In this document: positions 1-27,355 of the stretch, one piece after another
How the letters are laid out: every line of letters begins with the position of its first letter
How positions within the stretch are numbered: the stretch's first letter is position 1
Program-made: the position numbers and the translations under genes
The notes under the pieces: model-generated
Databases searched by the model: none
Told to the model about the DNA's origin: nothing
What the model saw: the letters and a program-made list of their open reading frames with translations, nothing else
Virus record (IMG/VR): IMGVR_UViG_3300017963_000561
Span: 1-32,478 of that record
Source: a virus
DNA length: 32,478 nucleotides
Direction: 5' to 3' (one strand)

Positions 1-1
1 A

Positions 2-220
2 GAATGTTTAAATATTTATAATTATGAACTATTTCAATACAATATAACTTTTACAGATTATCACATTAGTATTGGCTGTATTCAAATGTTGGCTCCTGAG
101 TGGTTGGAAGTGGGGATTGAAGATGCAAAAGAAATGGGACTTGATAGGGAATATTATCAAGATGTTAAAGAATTATTGAAATCATTAATTTCTATTATTT
201 ACAATAAGCCTTTAATTTAA
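2..220 (+). CDS. Hypothetical protein, 5' end cut by window edge
   Basis: An open frame runs from the first bases to a TAA at 218-220 and gives about 72 residues of normal-looking protein, ending in EYYQDVKELLKSLISIIYNK. Its start lies outside the window. It is in the same direction as the genes that follow, and 25 bases separate it from the next start. The visible part is mixed acidic/aromatic with no motif I recognise and no membrane segment. The other forward frame starting at base 1 closes quickly, which supports this frame. Function unknown. Confidence 0.6.
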   Translation, partial: ECLNIYNYELFQYNITFTDYHISIGCIQMLAPEWLEVGIEDAKEMGLDREYYQDVKELLKSLISIIYNKPLI

Positions 221-245
221 TGATAAATATTTGTAGGAGATATTT

Positions 246-446
246 ATGACAGAGCAAGAAGTATATAGTATTGTTAAAGAGAATATCTCCGGTGAGCAAA
301 TGCCTAAATTTATTCAGAGGTTACTTAGAGATGAGTTGGAAGAAGTTAAAAGGACTATTGAAAAAACTAAAAAGCTCTCCGAATCCCAAGGAACTGCCTT
401 GGGTAAAGCCGCTCTCGGAACCTTCTTTGGCTATCCGCTTGATTGA
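246..446 (+). CDS. Small hypothetical charged helical protein
   Basis: Sixty-six residues. The ATG at 246 follows a strong ribosome site, AGGAGA, five bases upstream. The middle (about residues 18-46) is rich in Glu, Lys and Arg and should be helical; the end is Gly/Ala/Phe-rich. No signal peptide and no known domain. Its last 8 bases overlap the TTG at 439 proposed as start of the M15 peptidase, so translation may be coupled. The alternative frame over this stretch looks like an out-of-frame shadow. Alternatively it and the peptidase were once one gene, or are joined by frameshifting; I see no classical slippery site in the right phase. Confidence 0.55.
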   Translation: MTEQEVYSIVKENISGEQMPKFIQRLLRDELEEVKRTIEKTKKLSESQGTALGKAALGTFFGYPLD

Positions 447-855
447 GGACAAAGAGTATTACGTGTGGCAAAAGGGTAATCGCCACATGCTCACTGATAA
501 TTTCAATTCCGTAGAATTTGAGTGTAGCTGCTCCAATCCTCTCTGCGTTGAGCAACGTATTTCCAAAGAATTAGTTGCCAATCTTCAGGCCATTCGAAGT
601 ACACTTAGTATTGATATTGTGGTGCTTAGTGGTTTTCGGTGCGAGTGGAAACAGGCCGAGCTTAAAAGACGAGGATATAAGACTGCTCGTAAATCTCAAC
701 ATCTTTTAGGCAATGCGGCAGATGTGCAAGTAAGGCCCCATAATCGAGATAAATTTAATAATATGATTGATACTTTTTTCGTAGCAAAGGGCTGGGCCGA
801 CAGTTGGGTACATGTAGATATGAGAGAGGATAAAGAGAGAATTTGGTATTATTAA
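439..855 (+). CDS. M15-family peptidase, probable endolysin
   Basis: Cuts peptide bonds in peptidoglycan (D-Ala-D-Ala carboxypeptidase/L-Ala-D-Glu endopeptidase fold) and is the likely lysis enzyme. The domain opens with LTDNFNSVEFECSC, then has GFRC, the zinc motif SQHLLGNAAD and the closing WVHVDM. Counting from the TTG at 439, the zinc ligands would be His88, Asp95 and His125 in a 138-residue protein, the size of a minimal M15 domain. The frame is open upstream to a TTG at 271, with an ATG at 331 preceded by AGAGG, but those starts would overlap the well-supported upstream gene heavily. The start is therefore uncertain; family assignment is firm. No signal peptide is seen, so export would need a holin. 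Confidence 0.85.
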   Translation: MIEDKEYYVWQKGNRHMLTDNFNSVEFECSCSNPLCVEQRISKELVANLQAIRSTLSIDIVVLSGFRCEWKQAELKRRGYKTARKSQHLLGNAADVQVRPHNRDKFNNMIDTFFVAKGWADSWVHVDMREDKERIWYY

Positions 856-856
856 T

Positions 857-1279
857 ATGTCTAAGAAAAAGCGCGCATATAAACGAAAAAAAGTAAAGGT
901 TGTAGAGGAGTCTACCCCAGCAAAGAATATTATGGAATGGTTCCTTTATCCTCTTTTTGATTCTCAAATTAGCCTAGAATATAAGCAGTGGCTTGATTTT
1001 GTGTTTAAAGCAGATGAGCGCCCTATTCTAGTTTTTACAGTTAAAAATGATTTTTGGATTAAAGCCAATATATATATAACGGCCATCAGTCACATGAAAA
1101 TGCAAAGGCCTAATAAAGTTAAAAAAGGAACACTTGTCTTTGCTAGATTTGATCGGCAACAGCGACATAAGATTGATCTTGAGGTTCAAACGGGAAGAGG
1201 GGGCAGAACAAGAGTACTTCATATTAATCGAACCCAATGGATAGATATTAGACCTAATTTGGAACTAAAGGATATATAA
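857..1279 (+). CDS. Hypothetical basic protein
   Basis: A 140-residue protein starting one base after the endolysin stop. The first 15 residues are very basic (SKKKRAYKRKKVKV), followed by a mixed alpha/beta body with many aromatic residues and a Gly/Arg-rich stretch GRGGRTR near residue 118. The basic start and Arg-Gly stretch suggest nucleic-acid contact, but that is inference; no named domain is visible. Its last base is the first base of the DNA polymerase ATG (TAATG overlap), so the two are probably translated together. Confidence 0.6.
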   Translation: MSKKKRAYKRKKVKVVEESTPAKNIMEWFLYPLFDSQISLEYKQWLDFVFKADERPILVFTVKNDFWIKANIYITAISHMKMQRPNKVKKGTLVFARFDRQQRHKIDLEVQTGRGGRTRVLHINRTQWIDIRPNLELKDI

Positions 1280-3225
1280 TGGAAATTCCCGTTGTATCAT
1301 TAGATATTGAAACTAAATGTAATGTAAAAGACTGTATCGGCAAATCCTGTCGCCACGGCTTAAGTCCCTTTACTAGTGATTTTATGTCAGCCGCGATTTA
1401 TACAAAATTACCCAAAGAGTATCAAGTTGTTTTCCATTCTTTAGCCGAACTGAAAAATTGGATTAATGAGCATCCCGCAACTAATTATTTAGGACAAAAT
1501 TTTAAGTTTGATATTAATTATCTCTTTCATAAAGACGTAGAAATTCCTCTTGATAGATGGGTACATGACACACAGGGAATGGCTGCAGCCGCACTGATAA
1601 AGGTGCCTAAGGAATACCAAGAGGCCTATGAGGCCCGCCGAATGGAAATTAATAAGTTGCCAGATACAAAGCAAACTATTAGGCAAGAGCGGGGTAGATA
1701 TGGACTAAAGCTTATGGCCCCCTATTTTCTTGGTATTGATGCTTATTGGGAACGTTTGGGTCATGAAAGTGACGAATATGTTATAAAGGATGCTAAGTAT
1801 ACTTATGAATTGGCGGAATTCTTTTTAAAACATTTACAAGAAACCGGAACTTATCAGTTTTATTCTGAGTATTTAATGCCATGGTCGAAGACACTCACAT
1901 TAGTAGAACGTACAGGTATTACACTTGATATGCAAGAACTTAAAAGTCAAACTTTAGACGCCAAATCTGGACTGGAATATGCAGAGACAGCACTTAAAGT
2001 TACTTGGGCCGAAGGCTTAAAGGCCTTTAAGAGTAAGCAAATAAAAGAACGTCAAGAAGAAAGGGATGAGTATTATAAGATAAAGCTTGCAGAGGATTTG
2101 GCCAAGCGTGGGAATTTAGATGCCAAAAAACTTGCTAAACGAAAGGCCTATTATGCAAATTTAAAAGTTAAAGCATTAGCTAAACCTGTAGATGAATTTA
2201 ATTTTTCTAGTCCTGCACATATGACGTGGTTGCTGCGAGATTATTTTAGTTATGATATTGTTAACACTAAAGGAGATGAGAGTACTGGTGTTGAGGTTTT
2301 AGAACGATTGAGTGAACAGGATGATAATATTAAGCAATATTTAGCATATCGAAAACACAATAAAGCAGTTACAGCTTTTTATGATAAATATGCAAAAATG
2401 CATCATAATGGGGTTATCTATTGCAATTTTAATCAACACGGCACACGTACCGGACGTACTAGTAGTAGTCATCCTAATATGCAACAAGTGCCAGAAAATA
2501 TGCATAAACTTTTTGTAGCTCGTCCAGGACATTTACTTGCCTGCTATGATATGACAGCTATCGAAACTATGCTTATTGCTTATTTTACACAAGACCCCAT
2601 ACTTCTTAATATCATATTTGAAGGGCATGATTTTCATGGATCTAATGCTAAGATCTATTTTCCTGAAATTAATTGTCACCCTAATGAAGTAAAAGAGAAA
2701 TATCCGAAAGAGCGTGCATTTGCTAAAAAATTGGGATATGCTTTATTTTACGGAGCAGGTAAAGGTCGTATTATGCTAGAGTCTATAGCTGCGGGCTATA
2801 ATTGGTCAGAGATCAGATGTAAAGAGATTGCAGATAATTTTAGATGTCAATATCAAACTGTTATGGATTTTAAAAGGCAATTAGATGAGCGTGTAAAATA
2901 TGAACCAATCAGCAATCCCTTTGGTCGAAAACATTTTTTTGAAGATTTATCTGATGTATATATGAAAAATTTTAATACACTCGTTCAAGGTACAGCATCA
3001 GATTTAGTTCAAAATTCCGCCCATAAAATTCAAACAAGTAAAGAATTTACGGCACAAGTTCTTTTATTTGTACACGATGAGTTGGTAATAGAATTTTCAG
3101 AAGAGCAACGCGAATTGGCTGAAAAATGGATACCATTTTATATGACTGACTATAACTTTGACACTCCGAGGGGCCGACTGCCGTTAAAAGTGGAGGGTGG
3201 GGTTGCTAAATACTGGAAGAAGTAG
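1279..3225 (+). CDS. polA-like: Family A DNA polymerase with 3'-5' exonuclease
   Basis: Replicative phage DNA polymerase, 648 residues, T7-like in scale. The N-terminal proofreading domain carries DIE (Asp9/Glu11), NFKFD (Asn74/Asp78) and YVIKD (Tyr167/Asp171). The polymerase domain has RTGRTSSSHPNMQQVP, motif A YDMTAIE (Asp424/Glu429), the O-helix RAFAKKLGYALFYG (Arg479, Lys483, Tyr487, Tyr491) and motif C VHDE (His599-Glu601). All catalytic positions are present. Tyr487 aligns with E. coli Pol I Phe762, the site where T7 polymerase also has Tyr. Motif A departs from the usual DYSQIE. No 5' nuclease domain is present. The ATG overlaps the preceding stop by one base. Confidence 0.96.
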   Translation: MEIPVVSLDIETKCNVKDCIGKSCRHGLSPFTSDFMSAAIYTKLPKEYQVVFHSLAELKNWINEHPATNYLGQNFKFDINYLFHKDVEIPLDRWVHDTQGMAAAALIKVPKEYQEAYEARRMEINKLPDTKQTIRQERGRYGLKLMAPYFLGIDAYWERLGHESDEYVIKDAKYTYELAEFFLKHLQETGTYQFYSEYLMPWSKTLTLVERTGITLDMQELKSQTLDAKSGLEYAETALKVTWAEGLKAFKSKQIKERQEERDEYYKIKLAEDLAKRGNLDAKKLAKRKAYYANLKVKALAKPVDEFNFSSPAHMTWLLRDYFSYDIVNTKGDESTGVEVLERLSEQDDNIKQYLAYRKHNKAVTAFYDKYAKMHHNGVIYCNFNQHGTRTGRTSSSHPNMQQVPENMHKLFVARPGHLLACYDMTAIETMLIAYFTQDPILLNIIFEGHDFHGSNAKIYFPEINCHPNEVKEKYPKERAFAKKLGYALFYGAGKGRIMLESIAAGYNWSEIRCKEIADNFRCQYQTVMDFKRQLDERVKYEPISNPFGRKHFFEDLSDVYMKNFNTLVQGTASDLVQNSAHKIQTSKEFTAQVLLFVHDELVIEFSEEQRELAEKWIPFYMTDYNFDTPRGRLPLKVEGGVAKYWKK

Positions 3226-3226
3226 A

Positions 3227-3481
3227 ATGGCATATAACAAGAAATACCTATATGGCTGTTCCGTATGGGTACAGTGGTATACAAAACGCGTGCCAAGATT
3301 TGAGCTATTTGATTATACAGGACAAAATAAGGGAAGGGGTGTATACTACTTTAGGTCGCGGACTGAGGATACGCTACTGATTAAGACCTTTGCGGAGCTT
3401 CAGTCTCCAGGCTTTGGCCCCTTTCTTATTGATTTGAGGAAGTTGGAGAAATGTGTTGACAATGTAACTCAGATGAGGTAA
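3227..3481 (+). CDS. Hypothetical protein
   Basis: Eighty-four residues from the ATG at 3227, one base after the polymerase stop; the same frame is open a little further upstream inside the polymerase gene, but a start there would be out-of-frame overlap. GAAG just upstream may serve as ribosome site. The protein is rich in Tyr, Arg and Phe with repeated beta-like stretches and no Cys cluster, signal or membrane segment. I do not recognise a family. Its position between polymerase and the lysis-like pair gives no firm clue. Confidence 0.6.
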   Translation: MAYNKKYLYGCSVWVQWYTKRVPRFELFDYTGQNKGRGVYYFRSRTEDTLLIKTFAELQSPGFGPFLIDLRKLEKCVDNVTQMR

Positions 3482-3490
3482 GATAAAATT

Positions 3491-3757
3491 ATGTCTACAT
3501 TTAAGAAGTTACTATTATATTGTGGGATTGCGGTTGTTGGGCTTTTTATTTTGACATTTGGAATTAATTCGTGTAGATTGAAACAGGCGCTTTTGAATTT
3601 ATTAAAAGCTAAGCACGACTTAGAGCTAGAGAAAACTGAGAAAAAGAAAGCTGTGCTTAAGGCCAAGATTAAAGAAGTCGAGGGAAAACGACGTGATGCG
3701 GTGGCTAGTTATCGTAAGTATATTAAGTCTGTTAACTCTGCCAGCAAGAGCCAATGA
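3491..3757 (+). CDS. Membrane-anchored coiled-coil protein, i-spanin (Rz)-like
   Basis: Eighty-eight residues. One membrane segment at about residues 7-26 (LLYCGIAVVGLFILTFGI) is followed by a highly charged Lys/Glu helix (about 30-75) expected to form a coiled coil. This N-in, periplasmic-helix layout is that of inner-membrane spanins such as lambda Rz. The next gene, a secreted protein, starts inside it in another frame, as with Rz/Rz1. Known of the family: spanins fuse inner and outer membranes at lysis. Against it, the partner has no lipobox. Could instead be an unrelated small membrane protein. Confidence 0.6.
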   Translation: MSTFKKLLLYCGIAVVGLFILTFGINSCRLKQALLNLLKAKHDLELEKTEKKKAVLKAKIKEVEGKRRDAVASYRKYIKSVNSASKSQ

Positions 3758-3989
3758 TACAGAGGCGCTAGGGCTTTGCGATAAGGCTCTAACGTTATGT
3801 GAAGAAGAGTTAAAGCTTAAGAATTCCTATATTAAAGCGCAGGATGAGACTATTACTATTCTTATTAAACAACGCAATGAGGCCTACGAGGAGGCTGGAA
3901 AAAACTTCTCAGCCGTACCTTGGTATGTCTGGACCATTACCGGTGTAGCTGCGGGCCTTGTATTAGGACATACAGTGGTGTTTAAATGA
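3696..3989 (+). CDS. Secreted protein with C-terminal membrane segment, possible spanin partner
   Basis: Ninety-seven residues from the ATG at 3696, with GAGGG upstream; a GTG three bases earlier is possible. It begins with a clean signal peptide (SILSLLTLPARA, cleavage likely before Asn20), then a Cys-containing charged helix with CDKALTLCEEELK, then a C-terminal membrane segment at about 77-95 (WYVWTITGVAAGLVL). Its first 62 bases lie inside the preceding gene in another frame. No lipobox Cys follows the signal, so it is not a classical Rz1. The predicted orientation would place the helix in the periplasm tethered at its C end. Its stop overlaps the next ATG by four bases. Confidence 0.6.
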   Translation: MRWLVIVSILSLLTLPARANDTEALGLCDKALTLCEEELKLKNSYIKAQDETITILIKQRNEAYEEAGKNFSAVPWYVWTITGVAAGLVLGHTVVFK

Positions 3990-4588
3990 TTAAGCCAGGA
4001 TTAGCAGCAGATTCATGGGTTGAGTATTGGTTTGAATATGGTGTTGATATTAAAGCGCGCCGTGTTTTTATTGGCGCCAATCTTTCTCAGCGTGAGGATC
4101 AAGAAGTCGATTTAAACATGTCTGAATTTGTAATTAAGGGCCTGTTGCTACTTGACAGCATGAATACTGACCCCATTGATGTTATTATTAATTGCACTGG
4201 CGGAGATGAGTACTCCGGCATGGGAATCTATGATGCAATTCAGTCATGTAAAAGCTATGTAACTGCAAAGGTATATGGGTCAGCCATGAGCATGGGCTCT
4301 ATTATATTTCAAGCTGCAGATGAGCGCCTTATCTCAGCCAACTCTAAAATAATGATTCATTATGGCACGGCCATTGCTACAGGTGATATGCACGACTTGG
4401 ACAATGAGCGTTGGGCTTTAGAGAGCAAAAAGTTTAGAAAGCAGATGGAAGACCTTTATTTAAAACACATTAAGGAAAAGCATCCTCAGTTTCCTCGAGA
4501 TAAGTTGAAGGAGATGTTAAAGTTCGATACGATATTAACAGCCCAAGAGACAATAAGATTGGGCCTTGCAGATGGGATTATTGGATGA
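3986..4588 (+). CDS. clpP-like: ClpP-type serine protease
   Basis: Two hundred residues with a full ClpP-like triad: Ser102 in YGSAMSMGS, His125 in KIMIHYG and Asp181 in KFDTILTAQE. The end TAQETIRLGLADGII matches the family's usual final motif. The substrate-groove Gly-rich strand NCTGGDEYSGMGIYDAI is also present. In phages such proteins often mature the capsid or trim scaffold, but this copy lies in the replication set on the other strand from the capsid genes. It may therefore act as capsid protease in trans or act on host or early proteins; the sequence does not decide. ATGA overlaps join it to both neighbours. Confidence 0.9.
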   Translation: MIKPGLAADSWVEYWFEYGVDIKARRVFIGANLSQREDQEVDLNMSEFVIKGLLLLDSMNTDPIDVIINCTGGDEYSGMGIYDAIQSCKSYVTAKVYGSAMSMGSIIFQAADERLISANSKIMIHYGTAIATGDMHDLDNERWALESKKFRKQMEDLYLKHIKEKHPQFPRDKLKEMLKFDTILTAQETIRLGLADGIIG

Positions 4589-5736
4589 GTAAAGTTAAAG
4601 TACTAGGCCCCCCAGTTGGCTATACAGATCTTTTAGATCATGCCATTACAGAGAAGCTTGAGAAGCGGCGAGCTGCCATTAAGGCCGGGGAAACGGATAA
4701 CTACTTCCCCCTTAGGCCCTCGGCCGCAGGCTTTTGTGGCCGTAGGCTGGCTTATAGCCTTATGGAGTACCATAGATATGCAGACTATGATATTCCCATC
4801 TACTCCCCTCGAACCGAACGAATCTTTGAGATGGGACATGCTGTTGAATATTCTATCCTTAAGCAATTTGGACAAGTAAAAATTGTAAGGACTAAGTATA
4901 AGCAGGCCCCATGTGACTGCCTTTATTTAGAGCCCCTTACGCCAAAAGGTGCGGCCCAGCTCATTGAGGGCTCCTGCGATGCCTGCTTTATGAGCGAGAC
5001 CTATAAGGCCGTTATGGATGTTAAATCCGTTAAAGACGGCTTTTCAAAGTTTTACCCGACCAGGTGGACCGAGACGCTGCAGAAGCTGGCTAAATGTAAG
5101 ACAGCTGTACAGCTTACTGAAACCGCCTTTTATGTAGATGACATTGAGGCTTTCTTGGAGGAATACCATGATTCTTTTTTGGCAGATAATATTTTTCAGC
5201 TTAATCTTTATGCTATGTCAGATTTTATTCGACTAAGAGGAATAGATCACGCTGTCATTTATAAGTATAACAAGAATGATAGCAGCCATTATGAGCTGCG
5301 ATTTAAGCCTTCTGAGGCCCTTGCACAAAAGGTGGTTGAGAAGTTCAATTTAGTTAATAGGTGTGTGTCTGAGGAGAAGCCTGAGGATGTGCCTAGAGAT
5401 TCTGGTCTAGGCTCTCAGCGCTGCGCATTCTGTGACTATAGCAAGCTTTGCTATCCAAATAAGAACTCTCTCAAAGAGTATTTCAAGACCTGGCCCAAGA
5501 AGAAATGGCCCACAGATATTGATCGTATTCAAGAAGAGGGGCTACCGGAACTATTTGAGCAATATGAGATTAATCAGGAGGCGACAGACTATAATAAAAA
5601 GCTTGAGGAAAAGATTCTTTTTCTTTTAGAAAACCATAAGGTTCAAAAGGTTAAGCTTGCGAATGGGCATGTATATGAGGTGAAGTTTCTAAAAACACCC
5701 AAGGAGCATCTGGAGCTTAGAAGGACTAAAATATGA
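4585..5736 (+). CDS. Cas4/RecB-like PD-(D/E)XK exonuclease with Fe-S cysteines
   Basis: A 383-residue nuclease of the Cas4/AddB type. His85 (MGHAVE), Asp132 (GSCDACF), Asp145-Val-Lys147 (VMDVKSVK) and Gln205/Tyr209 (QLNLY) form the nuclease core. Cys51 (FCGRRLAY) plus Cys280, Cys283 and Cys289 (RCAFCDYSKLC) match the four-Cys iron-sulfur pattern of Cas4 and AddB. Extra Cys residues at 110, 112, 131 and 134 are unusual. Known relatives trim single-stranded DNA ends in recombination. There are no CRISPR genes nearby, so I infer a replication/recombination role. After the last Cys comes a roughly 95-residue charged helical tail. Starts by ATGA overlap with the ClpP-like gene. Confidence 0.88.
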   Translation: MSKVKVLGPPVGYTDLLDHAITEKLEKRRAAIKAGETDNYFPLRPSAAGFCGRRLAYSLMEYHRYADYDIPIYSPRTERIFEMGHAVEYSILKQFGQVKIVRTKYKQAPCDCLYLEPLTPKGAAQLIEGSCDACFMSETYKAVMDVKSVKDGFSKFYPTRWTETLQKLAKCKTAVQLTETAFYVDDIEAFLEEYHDSFLADNIFQLNLYAMSDFIRLRGIDHAVIYKYNKNDSSHYELRFKPSEALAQKVVEKFNLVNRCVSEEKPEDVPRDSGLGSQRCAFCDYSKLCYPNKNSLKEYFKTWPKKKWPTDIDRIQEEGLPELFEQYEINQEATDYNKKLEEKILFLLENHKVQKVKLANGHVYEVKFLKTPKEHLELRRTKI

Positions 5737-6107
5737 ATGATGTTAAATTAAAGTTTGATTTAAACCCAGATCAACGCCAGTGCATTGCCTTAGCTTACGA
5801 CTTAGCCGTTAAATCTTTAGGGCCCGTAAAAGTTGGACGGAATAAGGAGCAAATACATCTACATAGACAGAAGAAGATTGAACTTAAGAAACTAAAGAAA
5901 AAGTTTGATAAGAAGAGCCTTTATGTAAAACTTAAGCCCGCAGAGGTGCGCTATACTATGAACCTAGTAACCATACAGCTTCAAAGTATCGAGGGCGGCT
6001 TTATCACAAAAAAGTTTCAGACTGAGGATCAAAAGAAAAATGCACAGACATTCTATGAGCTATATAAAGGAATCTATAATTATATGAAAGGGCCGGGCGA
6101 GAAATGA
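5733..6107 (+). CDS. Hypothetical basic protein
   Basis: A 124-residue protein coupled by ATGA overlap to the nuclease gene before it and to the gene after it. It is rich in Lys and Leu, mainly helical, with the dense basic stretch KKIELKKLKKKFDKKSLYVK near residues 46-65. No Cys, signal or membrane segment. Tight coupling to a Cas4-like nuclease suggests a DNA-related partner, but this is context only and I know no family for it. Confidence 0.6.
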   Translation: MNDVKLKFDLNPDQRQCIALAYDLAVKSLGPVKVGRNKEQIHLHRQKKIELKKLKKKFDKKSLYVKLKPAEVRYTMNLVTIQLQSIEGGFITKKFQTEDQKKNAQTFYELYKGIYNYMKGPGEK

Positions 6108-7438: not shown

Positions 7439-8135
7439 ACGATACATAGAAGAGTATATATCTGATATGCAGTATGCCTGGAGCCCTAGTACAATGCGGT
7501 CGGAACGGCACAGGCTAAATGGCGTGGCTGCGGTCCTGGATGGAAAGCCCCAATCTCTCTGGGACCGTATCCAAAACCTTAAGCCCTATACGCGCACAAC
7601 GGTCTGGACCCGTGTATGTAGGTTTTGGGATTGGCTATTAGATAAGGAATATATCAATGGATCGAATGAATATACATCTTTCAGGAAACGAAATAGACGG
7701 TTTTTTAAAGGATCATATAGAAGAGTACCAAGCAGGTTTCACTTTTCCGAAATCGATTCCCGCATACAGAGAATTCTATGTCCGGATTCTAAGGCGAAAG
7801 CAAACTGGATTCTTCACAATGCCCTTAGGGTTTCTGAGTTCGATACTCTTAAGAATGGTACTGTGGTTGGGAAGGGCGGGCATTGTAGACAGATATATAA
7901 CTGTGGATTTTCAGCCCCTCGAAAAAGAGTAAGCTATTCAAAGTTCTGGAGAGAGCTAAAGAAGGTGGGCCTTAAGCCCCATGACCTTAGAAAGGCAGCC
8001 CTAACGAGACTTGTGGAAAAAGGTGCCAATGAGTTTGAGTTGTGTGCGATTGCGGGCTGGAGTGATCTAAATACGGCTGCTAGCTATATTCGGGTTAATG
8101 AAACGAAGCTTAAGAAATTGATGGAGAGCGCCTGA
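7428..8135 (+). CDS. int: Compact tyrosine recombinase/integrase
   Basis: A site-specific DNA recombinase. From the ATG at 7428 it has 235 residues, short for the family. All active-site positions are visible: Arg134 (ALRVSEF), Lys149 (VVGKGGHCR), His185-Arg188 (PHDLRKA), Trp211 (AGWSDLNTA) and nucleophile Tyr220 (ASYIRV). The N-terminal part (1-90) looks like a reduced core-binding helical domain; there is no extra arm-binding domain. The start overlaps the holin-like gene by 11 bases; the frame extends to a TTG at 7380, but the ATG gives a natural beginning. No excisionase, repressor or att site is visible nearby. It may integrate the phage or resolve multimers. Confidence 0.9.
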   Translation: MEIKRYIEEYISDMQYAWSPSTMRSERHRLNGVAAVLDGKPQSLWDRIQNLKPYTRTTVWTRVCRFWDWLLDKEYINGSNEYTSFRKRNRRFFKGSYRRVPSRFHFSEIDSRIQRILCPDSKAKANWILHNALRVSEFDTLKNGTVVGKGGHCRQIYNCGFSAPRKRVSYSKFWRELKKVGLKPHDLRKAALTRLVEKGANEFELCAIAGWSDLNTAASYIRVNETKLKKLMESA

Positions 8136-8136
8136 G

Positions 8137-8280
8137 ATGGTTATCGGAAAGTATTATTGTCTTACGTGTGGGAATTACATTCATACTTATGTTATGTATA
8201 ATCCTTATACCGATAAAATATATTTACGTAAGGGTTTATGGAAAATGAATGTTAATCACGAATGTCTGGGAGTTTTATAA
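8137..8280 (+). CDS. Mini-gene, zinc-finger-like protein
   Basis: A 47-residue frame starting one base after the integrase stop and ending in a TAATG overlap with the next small gene. It has CLTCG near the start and HEC near the end (Cys8, Cys11, His43, Cys45), a possible zinc site. Tyr-rich, no signal peptide. No clear ribosome site except coupling to the integrase stop. Its size and regular Cys spacing make it plausible as a real gene; function unknown. Confidence 0.5.
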   Translation: MVIGKYYCLTCGNYIHTYVMYNPYTDKIYLRKGLWKMNVNHECLGVL

Positions 8281-8417
8281 TGAAATTGAATATTACGATC
8301 ATAAGGCAACGCCGGAATGGAAAGACGCGACGCGTATTTCTTGATGAATTAGATCCATCTGCTGGTAATTATAATATTGAAAAAGATATAAGTTGTGGGA
8401 TATTGTGCGGAGATTAA
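8280..8417 (+). CDS. Mini-gene, basic N-terminal hypothetical protein
   Basis: A 45-residue frame that shares one base with the stop of the preceding mini-gene (TAATG). GGGAG lies nine bases before the ATG. The first half is basic (IIRQRRNGKTRRVF), the second half acidic and ends CGILCGD. Back-to-back coupling with both neighbours supports it being translated. No family recognised. Confidence 0.5.
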   Translation: MKLNITIIRQRRNGKTRRVFLDELDPSAGNYNIEKDISCGILCGD

Positions 8418-8432
8418 TTGGAGGTTATTGCG

Positions 8433-8630
8433 GTGAAATCTAAGTACTTTATGTTAATTGTACTGTTAGTTTTAGTAGGATGTTCTAAACCAAGGTCTGA
8501 TCAATACTATATTGATCTATGTTTTGATTGGTGTGCCAAAATAGGTAAAACTCCCACTGAAATTAGGTGGAACAACGAAGTAGATCGTCTTCATTGTGTA
8601 TGTAGAGAAAGTACTAAAAATGAAAAGTAA
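8433..8630 (+). CDS. Small phage lipoprotein
   Basis: Sixty-five residues from a GTG at 8433, chosen because GGAGG lies eight bases upstream and the signal peptide then begins correctly. MKSKYFMLIVLLVLVGC is a classical lipoprotein signal with lipobox LVGC and lipidated Cys17. The mature part of about 49 residues has four more Cys (CFDWC and CVC), likely paired in disulfides in the periplasm. Known small phage lipoproteins act as outer-membrane spanins or shield receptors against superinfection; which applies here is open. Its end overlaps the GroES-like start. Confidence 0.72.
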   Translation: MKSKYFMLIVLLVLVGCSKPRSDQYYIDLCFDWCAKIGKTPTEIRWNNEVDRLHCVCRESTKNEK

Positions 8631-9045
8631 ATACCTAGAACAATTTCAAAAGCTTGAAGGCCTACGTGATAAGTTTGAATTGGTTGGAGACTTTATGCTC
8701 ATTGAGCGTATGCCTCAAGAGGAAAAGAAGACGAAGAGTGGAATAGTTCTTGCCCCCACACCTGGAGACTATAAGAGCGAGCTTCAGGCCGAGCAGCCCG
8801 TATTTGCTCATGTGCTTGCAGTGGGCGAGGGATTTTATGATGATGAAACAGGGGAGGATATTGATGGCAAGGCTAAGCCTGGTGACATAATTCTTATTTC
8901 CCCGATGTGTGTCACCTGGTTTAAGACGTTCGGTACCGTGATATCGGAAGGTGATGCGCTTGTTGGTGTAGCTAGAGAAAATGATGCAAAAATGTTCTTT
9001 AAGGGAGTGGAAGGCTACACAGCGGTATTTGAGGCCCTAGTATGA
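8620..9045 (+). CDS. groES-like: GroES-like co-chaperonin
   Basis: A 141-residue protein with a Cpn10 fold pattern. FELVGDFMLIERM matches the first strands. KKTKSGIVLAP (about 37-46) matches the GroES mobile loop including the Ile-Val-Leu GroEL-contact triplet (42-44). AHVLAVGEGFY, KPGDIILI and ALVGVAREND follow in family order. It is longer than host GroES (about 97), with an extra N-terminal helix and an insertion after the mobile loop. Known phage versions such as T4 gp31 replace GroES to fold the capsid protein with host GroEL. No GroEL is seen here. I chose the ATG at 8620, overlapping the lipoprotein stop. Confidence 0.88.
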   Translation: MKSKYLEQFQKLEGLRDKFELVGDFMLIERMPQEEKKTKSGIVLAPTPGDYKSELQAEQPVFAHVLAVGEGFYDDETGEDIDGKAKPGDIILISPMCVTWFKTFGTVISEGDALVGVARENDAKMFFKGVEGYTAVFEALV

Positions 9046-9587
9046 TTAGAATGACAATAGATCCAGCAAGTATATCTTCAGGTTGGTGTGTATATGAAAA
9101 CGGTGTATATCTGGATTCAGGTACTATTAAATTTACACAAAAGAATCCATTTCAACGATTGAGTTATCTATATGACGCATATCTTGCCCTTTTTTATCAG
9201 TTTGTGCCAGATGAGGTATATATTGAAACTATACCTATTTCACAGAATTTTGGTAAATTATTTACAATGAAGCCATTGTTTTACTCTGTAGGGGTTATCG
9301 GTGCAGCTCTCAGCTCCACTGAAACCGTAATAAATGATAGGTCTTTATTGCCCAAGGTGTGGCAGAAGGCAGTAGATTGGAATGGAAAACGCGATAAACT
9401 TAGAAGGTTTAAGGTTGATAGTGAGGATGAGCTAGCAGCCATTGGAATGAGTATTTATTTGGAGGAGAAAGATATCAATGAACGACAAGCGAGGCGGAAT
9501 AAACCCACCACAAACAGGAACAAAACACGACAAAGGAAAACCAAGAATGGCCCTACTTGCTCCAGTGGGCGTAAAAGAAGAAGCTAA
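9042..9587 (+). CDS. RuvC-like Holliday junction resolvase
   Basis: A 181-residue RNase H-fold endonuclease. The pattern is IDPASISSGWCVYE (Asp7), VYIETIPIS (Glu62) and VDSEDELAAIGM (acidic cluster 126-130, usual for the last RuvC Asp). Such enzymes cut branched DNA before packaging and in recombination. The folded part ends near residue 146. The last 35 residues are Arg/Asn/Thr-rich and overlap the next gene by 110 bases in another frame, so they are probably tolerated read-through rather than a conserved domain. Starts by ATGA overlap with the GroES-like gene. Confidence 0.85.
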   Translation: MIRMTIDPASISSGWCVYENGVYLDSGTIKFTQKNPFQRLSYLYDAYLALFYQFVPDEVYIETIPISQNFGKLFTMKPLFYSVGVIGAALSSTETVINDRSLLPKVWQKAVDWNGKRDKLRRFKVDSEDELAAIGMSIYLEEKDINERQARRNKPTTNRNKTRQRKTKNGPTCSSGRKRRS

Positions 9588-10026: not shown

Positions 10027-10386
10027 ATGAGTAAACAAAGGAAAGTATATATAGCTGGTCCTATGAGGGGCTATAAAGAATATAACTTTCCAGCGTTTGA
10101 TGAGGCCTCTAAGAGATTCCGTAAAGCTGGTTGGTTTGTTTACAGTCCAGCAGAGCTTGATAGGGCACAAGGAATTCATGAATATACCAAGAAACTCCCA
10201 AATGGGTTTTTAAGAGATGCAATGAAACGAGATACAGCAGCCATTTGCGAATGTGATGCCATTGCGCTTCTTCCTGGCTGGGAACACTCTGAGGGTACAC
10301 ATGTTGAGCTAACCCTTGCGGGCCTTCTTGAGCTTGATACTTATGATGCAATAACAATGAAAAAGATCCATCCTAACAAGGAGTAA
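10027..10386 (+). CDS. DUF4406 nucleoside deoxyribosyltransferase-like protein
   Basis: A 119-residue protein with the DUF4406 signature YIAGPMRGYKEYNFPAFDEA at the start, then AGWFVYSPAELD, a charged RDAMKRDTAAICECDAIALL and GWEHSEGTHVELTLAG. The Rossmann-like fold and the Glu in EGTHVE resemble nucleoside 2-deoxyribosyltransferases. Activity on bases or on nucleotides is inferred. Its place after a dNTP hydrolase-like gene fits nucleotide handling. The ribosome site AAGGAG lies at 10015-10020, seven bases before the ATG. Confidence 0.8.
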   Translation: MSKQRKVYIAGPMRGYKEYNFPAFDEASKRFRKAGWFVYSPAELDRAQGIHEYTKKLPNGFLRDAMKRDTAAICECDAIALLPGWEHSEGTHVELTLAGLLELDTYDAITMKKIHPNKE

Positions 10387-10390
10387 TAAA

Positions 10391-11116
10391 TTGGCCCGAA
10401 AAAGAGTTACCATAGACATAGAGACTTTTCCTAATCTAATTTGGGCTTGGGGCATTCATGAACAAGATGCAATTGCAGTGGAGCAACACTGGCAACTTGC
10501 ATCTATGGCTTGGAAGACTTTTGATAAGTCTGGAATATCCTACGCCTCTCAGCAGGAGATGTCTGAGAAAAAGCTAGCCAAAGTGTGCTGGGACGTTCTC
10601 AATGAGGCTGATATTATTATTGGCCATAATATTAAGCGATTTGATAAAAAGAAACTAAATGCTAAGTTTATGGAATTTGGTCTGGGTCCACCGTCCCCCT
10701 ATGATGTTGTGGATACTCTAGAGCAGGCTCGGAAGCATTTTAAATTCACATCTAATCGCTTAGGCGCACTTGCAGAAGACCTAGAAGTGGGACATAAGCT
10801 TCCTAACGAAGGCTGGTCTATGTGGGAAGGCTGCATGCAAGATGACCCAAAATGCTGGGCTAGGATGAAGCGCTATAATAAGACAGATGTCGAAGTTAAT
10901 GACAAAATTTATGAAAAGATGCTTCCCTGGATTGAGAATCATCCTGAGGTAAATCTACTTGATGGTAAGCGTACTTGCCGTTGCGGGTCTGAACATGTGG
11001 TTAAAAACGGGCTTGCCGTAGCTGGTAAAACTATGAAACAGCGCTATCGGTGCGAGGACTGTAAGGCTTATTTACTCGGGCCTATGAAAGATAGGGCTAT
11101 TGAGTATGGGGACTAA
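10391..11116 (+). CDS. DnaQ-like 3'-5' exonuclease with C-terminal zinc ribbon
   Basis: A 241-residue protein from a TTG start after AAGGAGTAATAAA. The DEDD exonuclease motifs are TIDIETFPN (Asp9/Glu11), IIIGHNIKRFD (Asn80/Asp85) and RYNKTDVEVN (Tyr162/Asp166). The C-terminal 45 residues form a zinc ribbon with CRCGS (Cys196/Cys198) and CEDC (Cys221/Cys224), like those of some transposases and phage nucleases. It is a second exonuclease beside the polymerase's own, so it probably serves recombination or degradation of host DNA. Ends inside the methylase start by a short overlap. Confidence 0.85.
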   Translation: MARKRVTIDIETFPNLIWAWGIHEQDAIAVEQHWQLASMAWKTFDKSGISYASQQEMSEKKLAKVCWDVLNEADIIIGHNIKRFDKKKLNAKFMEFGLGPPSPYDVVDTLEQARKHFKFTSNRLGALAEDLEVGHKLPNEGWSMWEGCMQDDPKCWARMKRYNKTDVEVNDKIYEKMLPWIENHPEVNLLDGKRTCRCGSEHVVKNGLAVAGKTMKQRYRCEDCKAYLLGPMKDRAIEYGD

Positions 11117-11618
11117 AGGACATATAACTAAACAGGGCTTCAATTCCAATGAATATGAAACACCTAAATGGCTCTTCAATAAGCTTAATAACCTATATAG
11201 TTTTAAATGTGATATGACCTGCACCACTGAAAACGAGAAGATTCCAGGAAGCTTTGATTTCCATAAGGGAGACGCTCTAAATATGCCCTGGGAGTGCTTT
11301 AAAGGGGACTACGTTTGGTTGAATCCTCCCTACCGACCCCTGAGGCCTTGGATTGAAAAGGCATGGACTGAGAGCCAATCTGGCGTAAATGTGGTTATGA
11401 TAGTGCCACTGGCTACTATATCTGCACAATACTTTCAGCAATATTTACCAAATGAGATTATGCTGTTTACTAAAAGAATCAACTTCGAATATAAAGGTGT
11501 GGAAATAAAGGGGAATGCGCACTGCACTTGCTTGCTGGTATATAATGCTAGTAATGAGTGGTCTGGATATACTCAGCTGGGCACAGATTGTGTGCCTGAT
11601 ATTCACTACATAGACTAA
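11106..11618 (+). CDS. N6-adenine DNA methyltransferase, phage Dam type
   Basis: A 170-residue protein from the ATG at 11106, preceded by ATAGGG; a TTG two codons earlier is possible. It matches the phage DNA N-6-adenine methyltransferase family: NEYETPKWLFNKLN at about 15-28, CDMTCTTENEKIP at 35-47, the catalytic NPPY motif in YVWLNPPYRPLRPWI (Asn73-Tyr76), then NVVMIVPL. There is no restriction partner nearby. Phages use such orphan methylases to evade restriction or mark their DNA. Its stop TAA at 11616-11618 overlaps the stop of the convergent protease gene by three bases of shared sequence. Confidence 0.85.
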   Translation: MGTKGHITKQGFNSNEYETPKWLFNKLNNLYSFKCDMTCTTENEKIPGSFDFHKGDALNMPWECFKGDYVWLNPPYRPLRPWIEKAWTESQSGVNVVMIVPLATISAQYFQQYLPNEIMLFTKRINFEYKGVEIKGNAHCTCLLVYNASNEWSGYTQLGTDCVPDIHYID

Positions 11619-12274
11619 AGCCTAAGTTCTTTCAGCTTCTCACGTATCAAATAGGCTGGAGCATACATCGCAAGCCCCACTTTAATCGGCCAATAGGAGG
11701 CATAGCCGATTCCATAAACCCTCTTACCATACCAATCTACTATAGCCCCACCGGAATCGCCAGGTATAATTTGAATTGCGGCTAAAAACCCCAAACCCCT
11801 CATTGTAAGAATAGGTATTAAAGCAATCCCAGGTGTCGCCCACTGGGCCTTAGTTCCGCTATATCCTAAATGTTTAATAAGTGTAAGGGGATAGGGCTGT
11901 TTTGTGGCAAGGGGTATATAGGGTAAATTTAAGGTATCAACTTGAAGAAAGGCAAAATCTCTTCGTCCTGGCTTTCCTACATAAAGAACATCAGCGTAAG
12001 CTTTATCTTGGTTATAAAATATAATTTTAGCTCTTTTTTGGCCCCTAATACAATGTGCAGCGGTGGCAATAAGATTCTTTTTAATAATTACACCGCTACA
12101 ATAATTTCCTATATTTACTACAGCTTTATGAACAATAACTTCTTTAATGCGTGGAAATTGAGGTTCCTCAACAACTCTTCCTCCAGCCCACCTAAAAAGT
12201 AAGCCCGTTCCGAATAATGCAATTAAAGCAATAAGATATAGACGAATAATTAAACGGAGTAAAAATTTCTTCAT
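11615..12274 (-). CDS. Membrane-anchored trypsin-like serine protease
   Basis: A 219-residue protein. A membrane anchor lies at about 5-27 (LLRLIIRLYLIALIALFGTG). The trypsin-like domain has His74 in IATAAHC, Asp106 in GRRDFAFL and Ser174 in PGDSGGAIVD, a complete triad. Cys59 and Cys75 match the disulfide flanking the catalytic His in chymotrypsin-fold enzymes, which implies an extracytoplasmic site. The specificity pocket beyond WYGKRVYGIGY is not readable. It is the last gene of the late set, four bases after a membrane/coiled-coil gene. It could process virion or envelope proteins or help lysis. Rare in tailed phages as far as I know. Confidence 0.9.
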   Translation of the reverse strand: MKKFLLRLIIRLYLIALIALFGTGLLFRWAGGRVVEEPQFPRIKEVIVHKAVVNIGNYCSGVIIKKNLIATAAHCIRGQKRAKIIFYNQDKAYADVLYVGKPGRRDFAFLQVDTLNLPYIPLATKQPYPLTLIKHLGYSGTKAQWATPGIALIPILTMRGLGFLAAIQIIPGDSGGAIVDWYGKRVYGIGYASYWPIKVGLAMYAPAYLIREKLKELRL

Positions 12275-12278
12275 TTTC

Positions 12279-12572
12279 TCATAATAGTTTTATAATTCCA
12301 GCCACAATGCCCACAATTGTTGCGATAGCTCCCAGCCCCACTAAAAGTGCTTTAACTACAGCACTAAAAACCGCTACATGCATTTTAACAGGTTTGAACT
12401 CTTTTTGCAACTCCTGATGAGATTCTTCAAGTAAATCGGTGCGTTCTATGTGATACTCGAGGTCTTTGCGGATAAGCTTCTGCTCAAGATTATTGGCATT
12501 GGCAAGCTCTTGAGTTTCTTGACAAATTACTTTAATTTCAGCAATGTCTTTTTTAATCTCGTCCACTGGCAT
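12279..12572 (-). CDS. Coiled-coil protein with C-terminal membrane segment, XhlA/holin-like
   Basis: Ninety-seven residues. Residues 1-60 are a charged helix (IKKDIAEIKVICQETQELA) predicted to coil. Residues about 74-95 are a membrane segment (KALLVGLGAIATIVGIVAGI). This layout is seen in the XhlA-type and related phage membrane proteins that work with holins. Gene order (ejection proteins, then this, then the anchored protease) suggests a lysis or envelope role. It overlaps the upstream gene by 20 bases. Confidence 0.6.
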   Translation of the reverse strand: MPVDEIKKDIAEIKVICQETQELANANNLEQKLIRKDLEYHIERTDLLEESHQELQKEFKPVKMHVAVFSAVVKALLVGLGAIATIVGIVAGIIKLL

Positions 12573-12753
12573 TTAGCGTGCCCTCATCGATAACGCGATA
12601 CATCTCTTCTTCTGTCATATTTTCTTCAAGAATTGCAAAGGCCAGGTCTTTATCAATGCCGCCCTCAATCATCTCCATAAGGGCCTGCTTGGCCTCATCG
12701 GAAAGGGTCCATTCTAATCCCTCACATAGGAATTTAAAGTTGGCTTTGTCCAT
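12553..12753 (-). CDS. Small acidic hypothetical protein
   Basis: Sixty-six residues, acidic and helical (LSDEAKQALMEMIEGGIDKD, then EENMTEEEMYRVIDEG). It overlaps both neighbours by 20 bases, a sign of tight packing in the late set. No signal, membrane segment or known motif. Its place after the large ejection protein is suggestive only. Confidence 0.6.
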   Translation of the reverse strand: MDKANFKFLCEGLEWTLSDEAKQALMEMIEGGIDKDLAFAILEENMTEEEMYRVIDEGTLNASGRD

Positions 12754-14620
12754 GTACGCTCTCCAGTGCGCTGTCGGTTAGATCCTCAGTCAAATTTTCC
12801 TCAACCCCCTGAATAAAAGTCGAGCGAATTAACGTATCAAATGCAGCCTTACTTCCGGTAAGTTCATCAAGCTGCTGAGGATTAAGAAGCCTGAGAAAAT
12901 TTACATTGCGACTTAAGTATTGAGCTAACTGTGTCTGTCGTGCCACAATTCGTGGAGAAATCTGAGATAAGCCTACAATAGGCATTGACAAAGCCACGCC
13001 AGTTTGAAGTAACCCAAATTTGGGTAAATAAGGCATAAATTTAAGTGTGGCTGCGTCTAACATAAGTTCTCTATTTATGGCTTCCCCATTAGGCACAAGT
13101 TGTCCTAGGCGCTTCATTGTCCCAACTGTTTTTCTGCCCGCAGCATTATCATTTAACATACGATCAATTAGTACGTCACTGACCTCATTATCTCTAAGCT
13201 TTCTGGCCTGGGATACGGAACGGTCGAACTTTAAATATAAATCTTGCATTTCCGTATATTTATTAGCCAAACCAACTTTATCAAATTCTTTGCCTACCGC
13301 CTCACGGGTCTTACCCTGTACAATTTTAACCAATCTTTCAACCTCTGGTGTAGCTCGCCTATCAACAGCCTTAAGTGTTCTATTGATTGAACGATTTAAT
13401 TCTTGTAATTGTTTGGCTGCATTCTTTCCATGCAATTCACCAGTCCGAAAAGAATCAATATTTTTTGTTAAAGTTTTTAAATGCCTAATAGCCTCGGGGC
13501 TATCAACTAATTCAGTATTGAGACCCAAACGACGCCTAGAAGCGACTTCTCCCGGAGAAAAAGGTACAAAATCTCGACCAGTTTTTGTCGATACAATTTT
13601 ACCTAAACCCATATCCTCTATCTGCTTATAAACATCATCAGTAACTTCCGTGAAATTTACTTTTAATTTTCGCTGATCAGCTGTTGAAAGAATATCATCA
13701 AGAATCTCTCCATATTTGGAAGGCAACACCTTATCTGCCTTGTCTAAGTAATTATCAATCTTACTAACTAGCTTTTCTCGAGCCCGATCTATTGCCTGGT
13801 CCAGGTGCTCACCTGGTTTTGCCAAACGGCTGTTTTTCTTGAGCCCCCTAATAACTGCAGGTGCATTGTCCATTAATTCCCGCATTGCGCCTTCGCCTGT
13901 TCCAGTAAGCTTTCCATAAATTTGTATAGCAGAATCAGTAATTATTGTATTTTTAAGTCTAGTTGCTGCGCGAGATAGAGCCAATAATGTAGGCCTAGCA
14001 CCAATAGCGGTGGCCTCGCCTCCTAAGGATAAAACACCTTCAAGAGCCAAATCTTTTATTTCTTCTTCGGGTGTGGCCTCATATGTTCCAGCTAATCTTC
14101 CAAGACTAGTTCTTACTGCGGCAGCCCCAACACCGGCAGCCCCAGCACCTAAAAGCCCACCTACTACTGCAGCTGGAGGCCCACCGACTGCTAAACCGGC
14201 TGCCCCGCCTTTAAGGGCTCCCTTGCCTACAATAATCGCATTTAACGCAACATCCCCAAGATCCGCCATATCTTTAGCTAGTTCTTTAGATACCTTCCAA
14301 GGATCACCTGTTTTCAGTATATCTCTAAAACCAGGATCTACCTGATGCCAATTACCTTCATGTTTTACTAGTAGACCATGATCTGGATGTGGATATAGTC
14401 CCTCAAAATTGCGCCTAAGATAATTAAGGCGGCCACGCTCATTTCCTAGCCCCTTCAATCGAAACCGCTGCCCAACAGTGAGCGGGGATTCTGGTCTTGG
14501 GGTATCAACGTCTTGTCCAACCAAGTCGCCCTCAAAGGACAGGTCTTCTTCAGGAATAGCTGTGCCTATCTGAAGATCTTCTTCTGGTATCCGTTGCCCA
14601 ACCTTTAAATCATTGGCCAT
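12734..14620 (-). CDS. Large internal virion/ejection-type protein
   Basis: A 628-residue protein in the place of T7 gp16. The N-terminus repeats the hexapeptide IPEEDL (residues 11-16 and 22-27). Residues about 125-170 are a long Gly/Ala/Val-rich stretch (GGAAGLAVGGPPAAVVGGLL) able to enter membranes. The remainder is Lys/Arg/Glu-rich helix with many heptad-like Leu. Known podovirus ejection proteins share this mix of hydrophobic patch and long helices and form the DNA channel across the envelope. I see no transglycosylase motif. Function is inferred from position and composition. Confidence 0.72.
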   Translation of the reverse strand: MANDLKVGQRIPEEDLQIGTAIPEEDLSFEGDLVGQDVDTPRPESPLTVGQRFRLKGLGNERGRLNYLRRNFEGLYPHPDHGLLVKHEGNWHQVDPGFRDILKTGDPWKVSKELAKDMADLGDVALNAIIVGKGALKGGAAGLAVGGPPAAVVGGLLGAGAAGVGAAAVRTSLGRLAGTYEATPEEEIKDLALEGVLSLGGEATAIGARPTLLALSRAATRLKNTIITDSAIQIYGKLTGTGEGAMRELMDNAPAVIRGLKKNSRLAKPGEHLDQAIDRAREKLVSKIDNYLDKADKVLPSKYGEILDDILSTADQRKLKVNFTEVTDDVYKQIEDMGLGKIVSTKTGRDFVPFSPGEVASRRRLGLNTELVDSPEAIRHLKTLTKNIDSFRTGELHGKNAAKQLQELNRSINRTLKAVDRRATPEVERLVKIVQGKTREAVGKEFDKVGLANKYTEMQDLYLKFDRSVSQARKLRDNEVSDVLIDRMLNDNAAGRKTVGTMKRLGQLVPNGEAINRELMLDAATLKFMPYLPKFGLLQTGVALSMPIVGLSQISPRIVARQTQLAQYLSRNVNFLRLLNPQQLDELTGSKAAFDTLIRSTFIQGVEENLTEDLTDSALESVHGQSQL

Positions 14621-16534: not shown

Positions 16535-16920
16535 TAGTTTTTCTCCAAACGATTAATCATATTAATCATGCCCTCATCAGCAACCACGAATCCTTGGCTT
16601 TTAAATTGGGCCATAAGATTAGGGTGTTTAATAGAACTAAAAACAACATCAAAACCAAGCTCTTTGGCCTTATCTAATAAAGTTTTTACTAACAATTTAA
16701 TTCCGATTGCCCGCTCTAATTTATTTGATTTGGGATTAGAAATAATCCACTCAATCCACGCAATTTTACTATCCGTTCTATAGAGCCAGCCTGCACATAT
16801 ATTTGAAATAACATAGCCCGTTTTAGGTAAATACTGTTCGGGCAAAATTGGCCAATTGTGGGCTTTCCACCAAGAAGTAACTACTTTATAATCTTCAACT
16901 GTATATCTTCTTATATTCAT
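16534..16920 (-). CDS. GNAT-like protein in the gp13 position
   Basis: A 128-residue protein with GNAT-fold features: MNIRRYTVEDYKVVTSWW at the start, the strands around ICAGWLYRTDSKIAWIEWII, a helix beginning AIGIKLLVKTLLDKAKELGF (where acetyl-CoA would bind) and the late KHPNLMAQFKSQGFVV. The usual Q/RxxGxG/A loop is weak, so acetylation activity is uncertain. A GNAT-type protein at this spot is common in podovirus tail regions, and it may be a structural protein built on this fold. TAATG overlaps link it to both neighbours. Confidence 0.7.
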   Translation of the reverse strand: MNIRRYTVEDYKVVTSWWKAHNWPILPEQYLPKTGYVISNICAGWLYRTDSKIAWIEWIISNPKSNKLERAIGIKLLVKTLLDKAKELGFDVVFSSIKHPNLMAQFKSQGFVVADEGMINMINRLEKN

Positions 16921-17951
16921 TATGTTTTAATAATGCCTTGATAGACAACCGTATTCGAGCGTGTTTCATTATCCCCGCCACTATCAACATTATGCGTATG
17001 GGCTCCGGAGGATGAAATACTATGTGTATGGTTTGCACTTTCTGTAGCAGAGGGCTGAGTCGTATTTACACCGCCAGAGGCCCCTCCTCCAGCAAAAGGA
17101 ACGCCAGAAGATACCCCCCAACCAAAGCTGCCCCCAGGAGGCAAGTGGGTATGTGATGCTGATTCTGTACCAGTTGTATGTGTATGATTTCCACTAGACG
17201 AAACTGCTAATGCGGTGTTTGCCACTGCTGTAGCATTTTCAAGCATAGAGCCCACAGAATTACCTGTAGACCCACCTGGAGCTGGAGCTACACCGCTGCC
17301 ACTATCGGGTGATTCCCAACATACAATAGTCATGCTAGCCGCTGAGCCTGATATTGAAATTTTTGTCCCGGCCAAAGCATTGGTCCTATTTGTAGCAAAA
17401 CCTACCGCATCAACATCATCTACAATTAAATAATAAGTAGTATTTAAACTGAGACCGGTAACTGGTGTTCCGGTTACACGAACTTTCATGCCGGTTCTGT
17501 TTAAACTGTGACCGGTGGCTGTAACTAAATCTGTTCCAGGATCACCAGCATTGCCAGAACATGTTGCATCATCTGGTGCTACTATTCTACGATAAAGTCC
17601 TCTATCATCAGGAAGATTAAATGTTGTACTCCCATCACCTTCACCAAATTTATCACCCGTAATTGCATAAAGATCGGCATAAGTAGTTCTAGAGACTTCA
17701 GAGCCATCCCTCAGTAACCAGCCTACGGGAGCAGTGGTCCCCGCATAATCCATTAGTGATCCTGGAGGACATAGTGCATTTTGAACTGCAGCAATTAACT
17801 TTGCTTTAGTAATTCCACTATCTTGAATATTATCTGAATCAATCTTCGTTGTATTTAAAAAAGTTTCAGTTGAAGTTTTTATATCATCAAGCATGGCTTC
17901 CGTAAGAATCTGGCCATCTTGATAGGATTTTGTCATAGTAAAAGTTGGCAT
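16920..17951 (-). CDS. Tail fibre with collar domain and HxH metal-binding repeats
   Basis: A 343-residue receptor-binding-type protein. Residues 1-60 are a helical N-terminal part for attachment or trimer formation. The phage tail collar domain (about 63-117) reads PGSLMDYAGTTAPVGWLLRD, then TTFNLPDDRG. Between it and the tip is an inserted beta-rich part (130-215). The tip holds four His-Thr-His motifs (256-258, 267-269, 308-310, 318-320), as in fibres that bind iron or zinc along the trimer axis, and ends NTVVYQGIIKT, typical of collar proteins. Nine bases follow the upstream gene stop. Confidence 0.88.
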   Translation of the reverse strand: MPTFTMTKSYQDGQILTEAMLDDIKTSTETFLNTTKIDSDNIQDSGITKAKLIAAVQNALCPPGSLMDYAGTTAPVGWLLRDGSEVSRTTYADLYAITGDKFGEGDGSTTFNLPDDRGLYRRIVAPDDATCSGNAGDPGTDLVTATGHSLNRTGMKVRVTGTPVTGLSLNTTYYLIVDDVDAVGFATNRTNALAGTKISISGSAASMTIVCWESPDSGSGVAPAPGGSTGNSVGSMLENATAVANTALAVSSSGNHTHTTGTESASHTHLPPGGSFGWGVSSGVPFAGGGASGGVNTTQPSATESANHTHSISSSGAHTHNVDSGGDNETRSNTVVYQGIIKT

Positions 17952-27115: not shown

Positions 27116-27355
27116 TTATTTACTGTTTGCTAAATAGGTTTCAAATTCTCGAAAAAGCCACTCTGCTCCTTCAAGTTTTGCTTTTATATAAGGCAGTCGC
27201 TGATAATCAGTCTCTGCCTTTAAATTCAAAAATCTTTTTTTATCTGACTCAACCAGCATATACAATAACTTCTGAACTACAGGATAGCTTGTTCCTTCTT
27301 TAAATAATTGTAATTCTTGAATATCTTCCTGATTCAGCTCCACATTATCTCCCAA
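27116..27355 (-). CDS. Small hypothetical protein following portal
   Basis: Seventy-nine residues, acidic/helical (QEDIQELQLFKEGTSYPVVQ, then KLEGAEWLFREFETYL). It overlaps the portal gene end by 11 bases. Small helical proteins at this place are common in podovirus head blocks. No motif gives a function. Confidence 0.62.
   Translation of the reverse strand: MGDNVELNQEDIQELQLFKEGTSYPVVQKLLYMLVESDKKRFLNLKAETDYQRLPYIKAKLEGAEWLFREFETYLANSK

Follow-up and report, generated by a model that had tools for sequence, protein, structure and literature searches.

The last late gene of an uncultivated tailed phage raises the question of why such a phage of bacteria would encode an exported serine protease. 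The window, by which we mean the whole stretch of DNA analysed here, is the complete IMG/VR record IMGVR_UViG_3300017963_000561 (32,478 bases), from a phage with an SU10-type portal. Portal, terminase and capsid genes lie on the minus strand, as does a collar fibre gene, and the plus strand encodes a DNA polymerase, ClpP, a Cas4-type exonuclease and a Dam methylase. The landmarks of this layout and the genes around the protease are as follows.

29565-31127, minus: large terminase
27345-29564, minus: SU10-type portal (PF23899, 139 bits)
24435-25367, minus: capsid protein
12734-14620, minus: putative ejection/internal-type late protein of 628 aa
12553-12753, minus: soluble protein of 66 aa, part of a conserved end module
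12279-12572, minus: protein of 97 aa with a coiled coil and a C-terminal transmembrane (TM) segment, directly upstream of the protease
11615-12274, minus: exported trypsin-fold serine protease of 219 aa with an ATG start, last gene of the late operon
11100-11618, plus: Dam-type methylase (PF05869, 58.8 bits), convergent with the protease and last of the early operon
3986-4588, plus: ClpP-type protease (PF00574, 102.2 bits)

A search of INPHARED found no DNA-level relative of the window. One further record, L002 (positions 1-6100), is near-identical, with proteins that are 99.8-100% identical across most of what the two have in common, and extends the window phage by about 5 kb past the window end; it carries a C39-like peptidase ORF (1688-2146) and a primase/helicase-like ORF. 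The window also encodes a Cpn10 (GroES)-like protein (8596-9045, plus), which is conserved group-wide.

A gene for an exported trypsin-fold protease ends the late operon

A preliminary description of this DNA had an open reading frame at 11615-12274 closing the late operon, and this proved exact: it is the last minus-strand gene, its start codon lies 4 nt past the stop codon of the coil-TM gene, and at the 3' end it shares 4 bases with the methylase gene. Because the gene ends the late operon, the protease is probably expressed late. Promoter and terminator sites near the gene were no more numerous than in shuffled sequence. The encoded protein matches PF13365 (Trypsin_2) over residues 59-189 with a score of 53.4 bits and E 6e-14, the cut-off being 27.6 bits, and its match to PF00089 is likewise above the cut-off of that family. 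Its main features are listed here.

12197-12253, minus: signal-anchor formed by a hydrophobic stretch near the N-terminus (residues ~8-26, 19 residues with a mean hydropathy of 2.3)
12098-12100, minus: Cys59, at the chymotrypsin C42 position, shared by the copies of the window, G008 and G009
12053-12055, minus: catalytic His74, invariant in nine of nine homologues
12050-12052, minus: Cys75, at the chymotrypsin C58 position, shared by the copies of the window, G008 and G009
11957-11959, minus: catalytic Asp106, invariant in nine of nine
11753-11755, minus: catalytic Ser174 within PGDSGG, invariant in nine of nine together with G172 and G175

The triad and the Cys59/Cys75 pair were found at the residues for which they had been proposed, and these two are the only cysteines of the protein. 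A basic N-terminus precedes the hydrophobic stretch, AlphaFold2 (AF2) models place a helix at residues 2-31, and a lipobox is absent. The earlier term trypsin-like is apt for the fold but not for the specificity residue of trypsin, since Q168 occupies the Asp189 position, six residues before the catalytic Ser, which does not agree with Arg/Lys specificity. The view that the trypsin-fold enzyme is present instead of a ClpP-type protease had to be given up: because the phage also encodes ClpP, the enzyme is additional and not a substitute. In the window, clpP belongs to the early operon and adjoins lysis-type genes, away from the capsid genes, an arrangement also seen in G003, G009, G031, G064 and G067.

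The predicted structure resembles MarP and HtrA-type proteases

AF2 with the nine homologues returned a model with a pLDDT of 86.2 and a pTM of 0.75, in which most of the catalytic domain reaches about 90 or more and only the linker 31-42 falls below 50; an earlier model built with six sequences had been poor (pLDDT 69). The modelled chain adopts a trypsin/HtrA-type double beta-barrel, with PDB matches at E 3e-11 and probability 1.00. The best solved folds in Foldseek were MarP/Rv3671c (3lt3, 3k6z), H. pylori HtrA, MamO and DegS-deltaPDZ, with E values of about 1e-10 to 3e-11. Profile search and structure prediction both agree with the chymotrypsin-type fold proposed at the outset.

This predicted fold and the export signal rule out a head-maturation protease. 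Membership of the DegS/HtrA family was rejected, as the protein ends after the protease domain, without a PDZ domain, and scores 29.6 bits against 423 with TIGR02038 and 28.1 against 416 with TIGR02037. The MarP family was rejected as well (NF033740, 27.3 bits against 250), the window protein having a single N-terminal hydrophobic segment and no multi-helix membrane domain.

With DegS-deltaPDZ, HtrA and MarP as the best solved folds, the enzyme could be imagined to act in envelope stress or quality control, as a PDZ-less DegS- or DegP-like protease that trims misfolded envelope proteins of the phage or its host or alters the envelope stress response of the host. We regard this role as quite unlikely: the PDZ domain is missing, the window copy has an S1A-type GDSGG and the C42-C58 pair and not the GNSGG of HtrA, and the replacement by subtilisins and the linkage to lysis-type genes described below would be left unexplained.

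Homologues in related phages retain the triad and an export signal

To gather relatives, we used portal and capsid profiles, which yielded about 80 IMG/VR records, metagenomic in origin and for the most part incomplete, plus one INPHARED genome, MW202601, that was analysed in full; a simple ORF rule served to call the genes of these relatives. We found Trypsin_2 genes in eight of these relatives (G003, G008, G009, G017, G031, G052, G053 and G067), all above the Pfam cut-off and with identities to the window protease from 33% down to 17%. At this divergence, only M1, H74, D106, G172, S174 and G175 are invariant columns of the nine-protein alignment. Loss of the triad was seen in none of these eight relatives, and its conservation across all nine homologues is, judged from the alignment, far beyond chance. 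Searches for close homologues of the window protease gave none in INPHARED at E 0.1 (at E 10 there were chance-level matches only) and none in IMG/VR with the single sequence as query; an alignment query of IMG/VR retrieved G008 and G009 alone.

The homologues fall into two subfamilies by their cysteine pair, which profile comparison links with a probability of 98%. The window protein, G008 and G009 share C59/C75 (C42/C58 of chymotrypsin), and in the remaining six, Cys residues at His+2 and Asp+2 (H-x-C and D-x-C) are invariant along with the triad. Distinct pairs that are both retained would fit an oxidising compartment. Signal-anchor-like N-termini are present in the window copy, G008, G017, G031 and G053, cleavable-looking signals in G003 and G009, and lipoboxes in G052 and G067. 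The membrane anchor claimed for the window copy therefore stands for that copy but not as a group feature: because all nine copies carry signals but of differing kinds, it is export that is conserved, and not the anchor. Together, these results give good support to the view that the window gene encodes an intact, exported serine protease of the trypsin fold that has long been under constraint, with a putative protease activity.

In five of nine genomes, the protease gene lies near lysis-type genes

In the window as in G008 and G009, a gene for 61-66 aa is followed by the coil-TM gene, the protease gene and the convergent early operon. Counterparts of the 66-aa protein (61-64 aa) occupy the same place in G008, G009, G039 and G052, where they were recognised by position and a sequence motif; the G039 record stops just past its counterpart. 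Homologues of the 628-aa protein end the late operon in G008, G016, G053 and others. The coil-TM protein was also considered as a proven XhlA, an identity that was rejected for too weak a similarity (phrog_1193 'hemolysin' at E 1e-3; PF10779 XhlA matching one of six aligned coil-TM proteins, at 5e-4).

The protease gene likewise follows ejection-type genes in two related phages, G008 and G009. This position, as last gene after such genes in these two and the window, would suit a virion protease that is packaged with the upstream ejection-type proteins and acts at entry, with periplasmic or membrane proteins as conceivable substrates, and roughly this position is taken in MW202601 and G075 by a metzincin-like ORF that lacks a signal peptide. 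However, Sec-type, lipoprotein and cleavable signals are ill-suited to cytoplasmic packaging, and the genes for six of the nine homologues do not lie within the late strand or module, which makes a virion role decidedly unlikely.

The window also carries the following candidate lysis genes.

271-855, plus: M15 peptidase, endolysin candidate (PF08291, 41.8 bits), true start possibly internal
3491-3757, plus: protein with an N-terminal TM segment (residues 7-25, hydropathy 2.51) and a coiled coil, i-spanin-like by architecture only
3693-3989, plus: protein with a signal peptide, two Cys, a coil and a C-terminal TM segment (Cys-coil-TM), lysis-type

Genes of these kinds (M15 peptidase, lytic transglycosylase or Cys-coil-TM) lie less than 1.5 kb from the trypsin gene in five of the nine genomes (G003, G017, G031, G052 and G067), which are related, so that their neighbourhoods are not independent. 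In G003, the protease gene shares bases with one for an M15 peptidase, and after it come a small TM ORF, the gene for a signal-Cys-coil-TM protein (350 bp from the protease gene), a lytic transglycosylase gene (664 bp from it) and clpP. The nearest lysis-type gene is 0-1.0 kb from the protease in G031, G067, G017 and G052; the same kinds of gene occur within 0.2-1.9 kb in the first three, and the protease gene of G052 overlaps a Cys-coil-TM gene. In G052 and G053, the protease lies at the late-operon junction on the opposite strand. The copies of the window and G009 are not located with lysis genes, and the window protease is 7.6-10.8 kb from its own M15 and Cys-coil-TM genes. Because five relatives place the gene by lysis-type and not after ejection-type genes, lysis is favoured over the virion among the options first proposed.

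Apart from the start, only C29 and C36 are invariant in the alignment of the Cys-coil-TM family, which by its sequence features seems to be a spanin-like lysis protein that has so far escaped recognition. Homologues occur in L011, L077, L076, L166 and L170, and homologues flank the protease in relatives. L011 also contains several neighbouring ORFs (8060-8299, 9181-9495, 10217-10522 and 10720-10986) made almost purely of xQLx tetrapeptide repeats, such as SQLDNQLYSQL.

Other proteases replace the trypsin-fold enzyme in some relatives

Three relatives without a Trypsin_2 gene (G019, G035 and G064) encode N-terminally exported S8 subtilisins (PF00082, above the cut-off), with those of G035 and G019 being 62% identical. 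The subtilisin genes sit in replication-type regions, away from lysis genes. Two further relatives have a metzincin-like ORF at the end of the late operon.

MW202601 (L009), 16566-17558, minus: metzincin-like ORF with an HExGHxxLxR[GP]H...M motif
G075 (L176), contig positions 41647-43089, plus: metzincin-like ORF with the same motif

These two ORFs are mutual homologues (30%) and lack a signal peptide, and that of MW202601 has no Pfam match. Among the 13 records of at least 29 kb, seven carry an S1 enzyme, two an S8 and two a metzincin-like enzyme, none was recognised in two, and no record has two kinds together; the chance of this non-overlap is 0.015 if records are assumed to be independent, although they are in fact related. 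No candidate enzyme was seen in G016 and G034.

The pattern bears on two further explanations. In superinfection exclusion, the exported protease would cut receptors or envelope proteins used by a second phage, or block adsorption to debris. Export signals in all copies suit any envelope substrate, and the S8 genes of G019 and G035 lie in a non-structural region, where accessory genes are common; yet lysis-type genes are close by in those five genomes, and the end of the late operon, where the window copy lies, is late for exclusion, so that we consider this unlikely. Exported trypsin-fold proteases are also scattered among unrelated phages, as expected of accessory cargo without a lysis role, such as an extracellular nutrient protease or a lysogenic-conversion gene. 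This explanation is very improbable given that most near-complete records of the group have an S1 or S8 gene, intact and in core operons, and that the portal and capsid profiles retrieved zero relatives, and hence no prophage of the group, from GTDB genomes.

A proposed role in lysis

The best reading, to which we assign a probability of about 0.5, is a late periplasmic protease that aids lysis. It builds on the computed fold, triad, export signals of all homologues, gene position, lysis-gene linkage and subtilisin replacement, and the conservation of an exported protease near genes for bursting the cell suggests that cutting envelope proteins helps the phage to exit. Judged from the lysis-type genes, the host probably has a Gram-negative envelope. 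From these features we infer the following course. A Sec-exported, active trypsin-fold serine protease, nearest in fold to membrane-tethered DegS (without its PDZ domain) and MarP, would be produced late in infection and inserted in the inner membrane by its uncleaved N-terminal anchor. The catalytic domain would fold in the periplasm, where Cys59 and Cys75 could form a disulfide of the C42-C58 type. At the end of infection, the protease would serve as an accessory lysis factor that cleaves envelope proteins, candidate targets being the tethers of the outer membrane or of peptidoglycan, or else peptidoglycan hydrolases, which it might activate in the manner of MarP. The weakened envelope would then fail once the endolysin acts.

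The group keeps an exported protease, varies its export mode, places it near lysis-type genes and exchanges it for an enzyme of unrelated fold, a pattern that suggests a genuine requirement for envelope proteolysis. For annotation, exported Trypsin_2 or subtilisin genes of phages merit a lysis assay before they are labelled host cargo.

Comparison with known systems

The window protein shares the common fold, the triad and GxSG with PF13365 and family S1 (phrog_9683 'protease'), and phrog_9683 matches five of the six copies tested; it differs in being a single exported catalytic domain of ~220 aa, with 23 bits to phrog_9683. DegS (TIGR02038), an inner-membrane periplasmic protease, likewise combines an N-terminal anchor with an HtrA-type catalytic domain, whereas the window protein has GDSGG and a Cys pair not expected in HtrA. 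MarP/Rv3671c of mycobacteria (NF033740) is a membrane-tethered, Cys-containing protease outside the cytoplasmic membrane that processes a peptidoglycan hydrolase; it has several anchor helices and the window protein one. By analogy, the phage enzyme could activate hydrolases or cut envelope tethers.

Exported single-domain trypsin-fold proteases are annotated in Rhizobium phage AF3 (QNH71420) and Brevundimonas phage Kikimora (USN15568), and an exported phage enzyme of this fold is therefore not new as a kind. Those phages are unrelated to the group, their sequences are distant, and the genes are solitary or beside the portal gene, not beside recognised lysis genes. Our literature search found no paper on exported trypsin-fold proteases in phage lysis, and it is the group-wide pattern that looks new.

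Spanins cannot be identified in 13% of phages of Gram-negative hosts, and how these phages get through the outer membrane is still open (PMC12819732). The group pattern makes this question testable and offers its protease as a defined candidate for outer-membrane opening without recognisable spanins. More tentatively, and on balance doubtfully, envelope proteolysis could be a dedicated lysis step of the group, in which an exported S1 or unrelated S8 protease removes the outer barrier, a third route next to those of spanins and disruptins. The proposed task shared with these two is the removal of the outer barrier at lysis; spanins and disruptins work by membrane fusion or as antimicrobial peptides, whereas the window enzyme is proposed to act by proteolysis.
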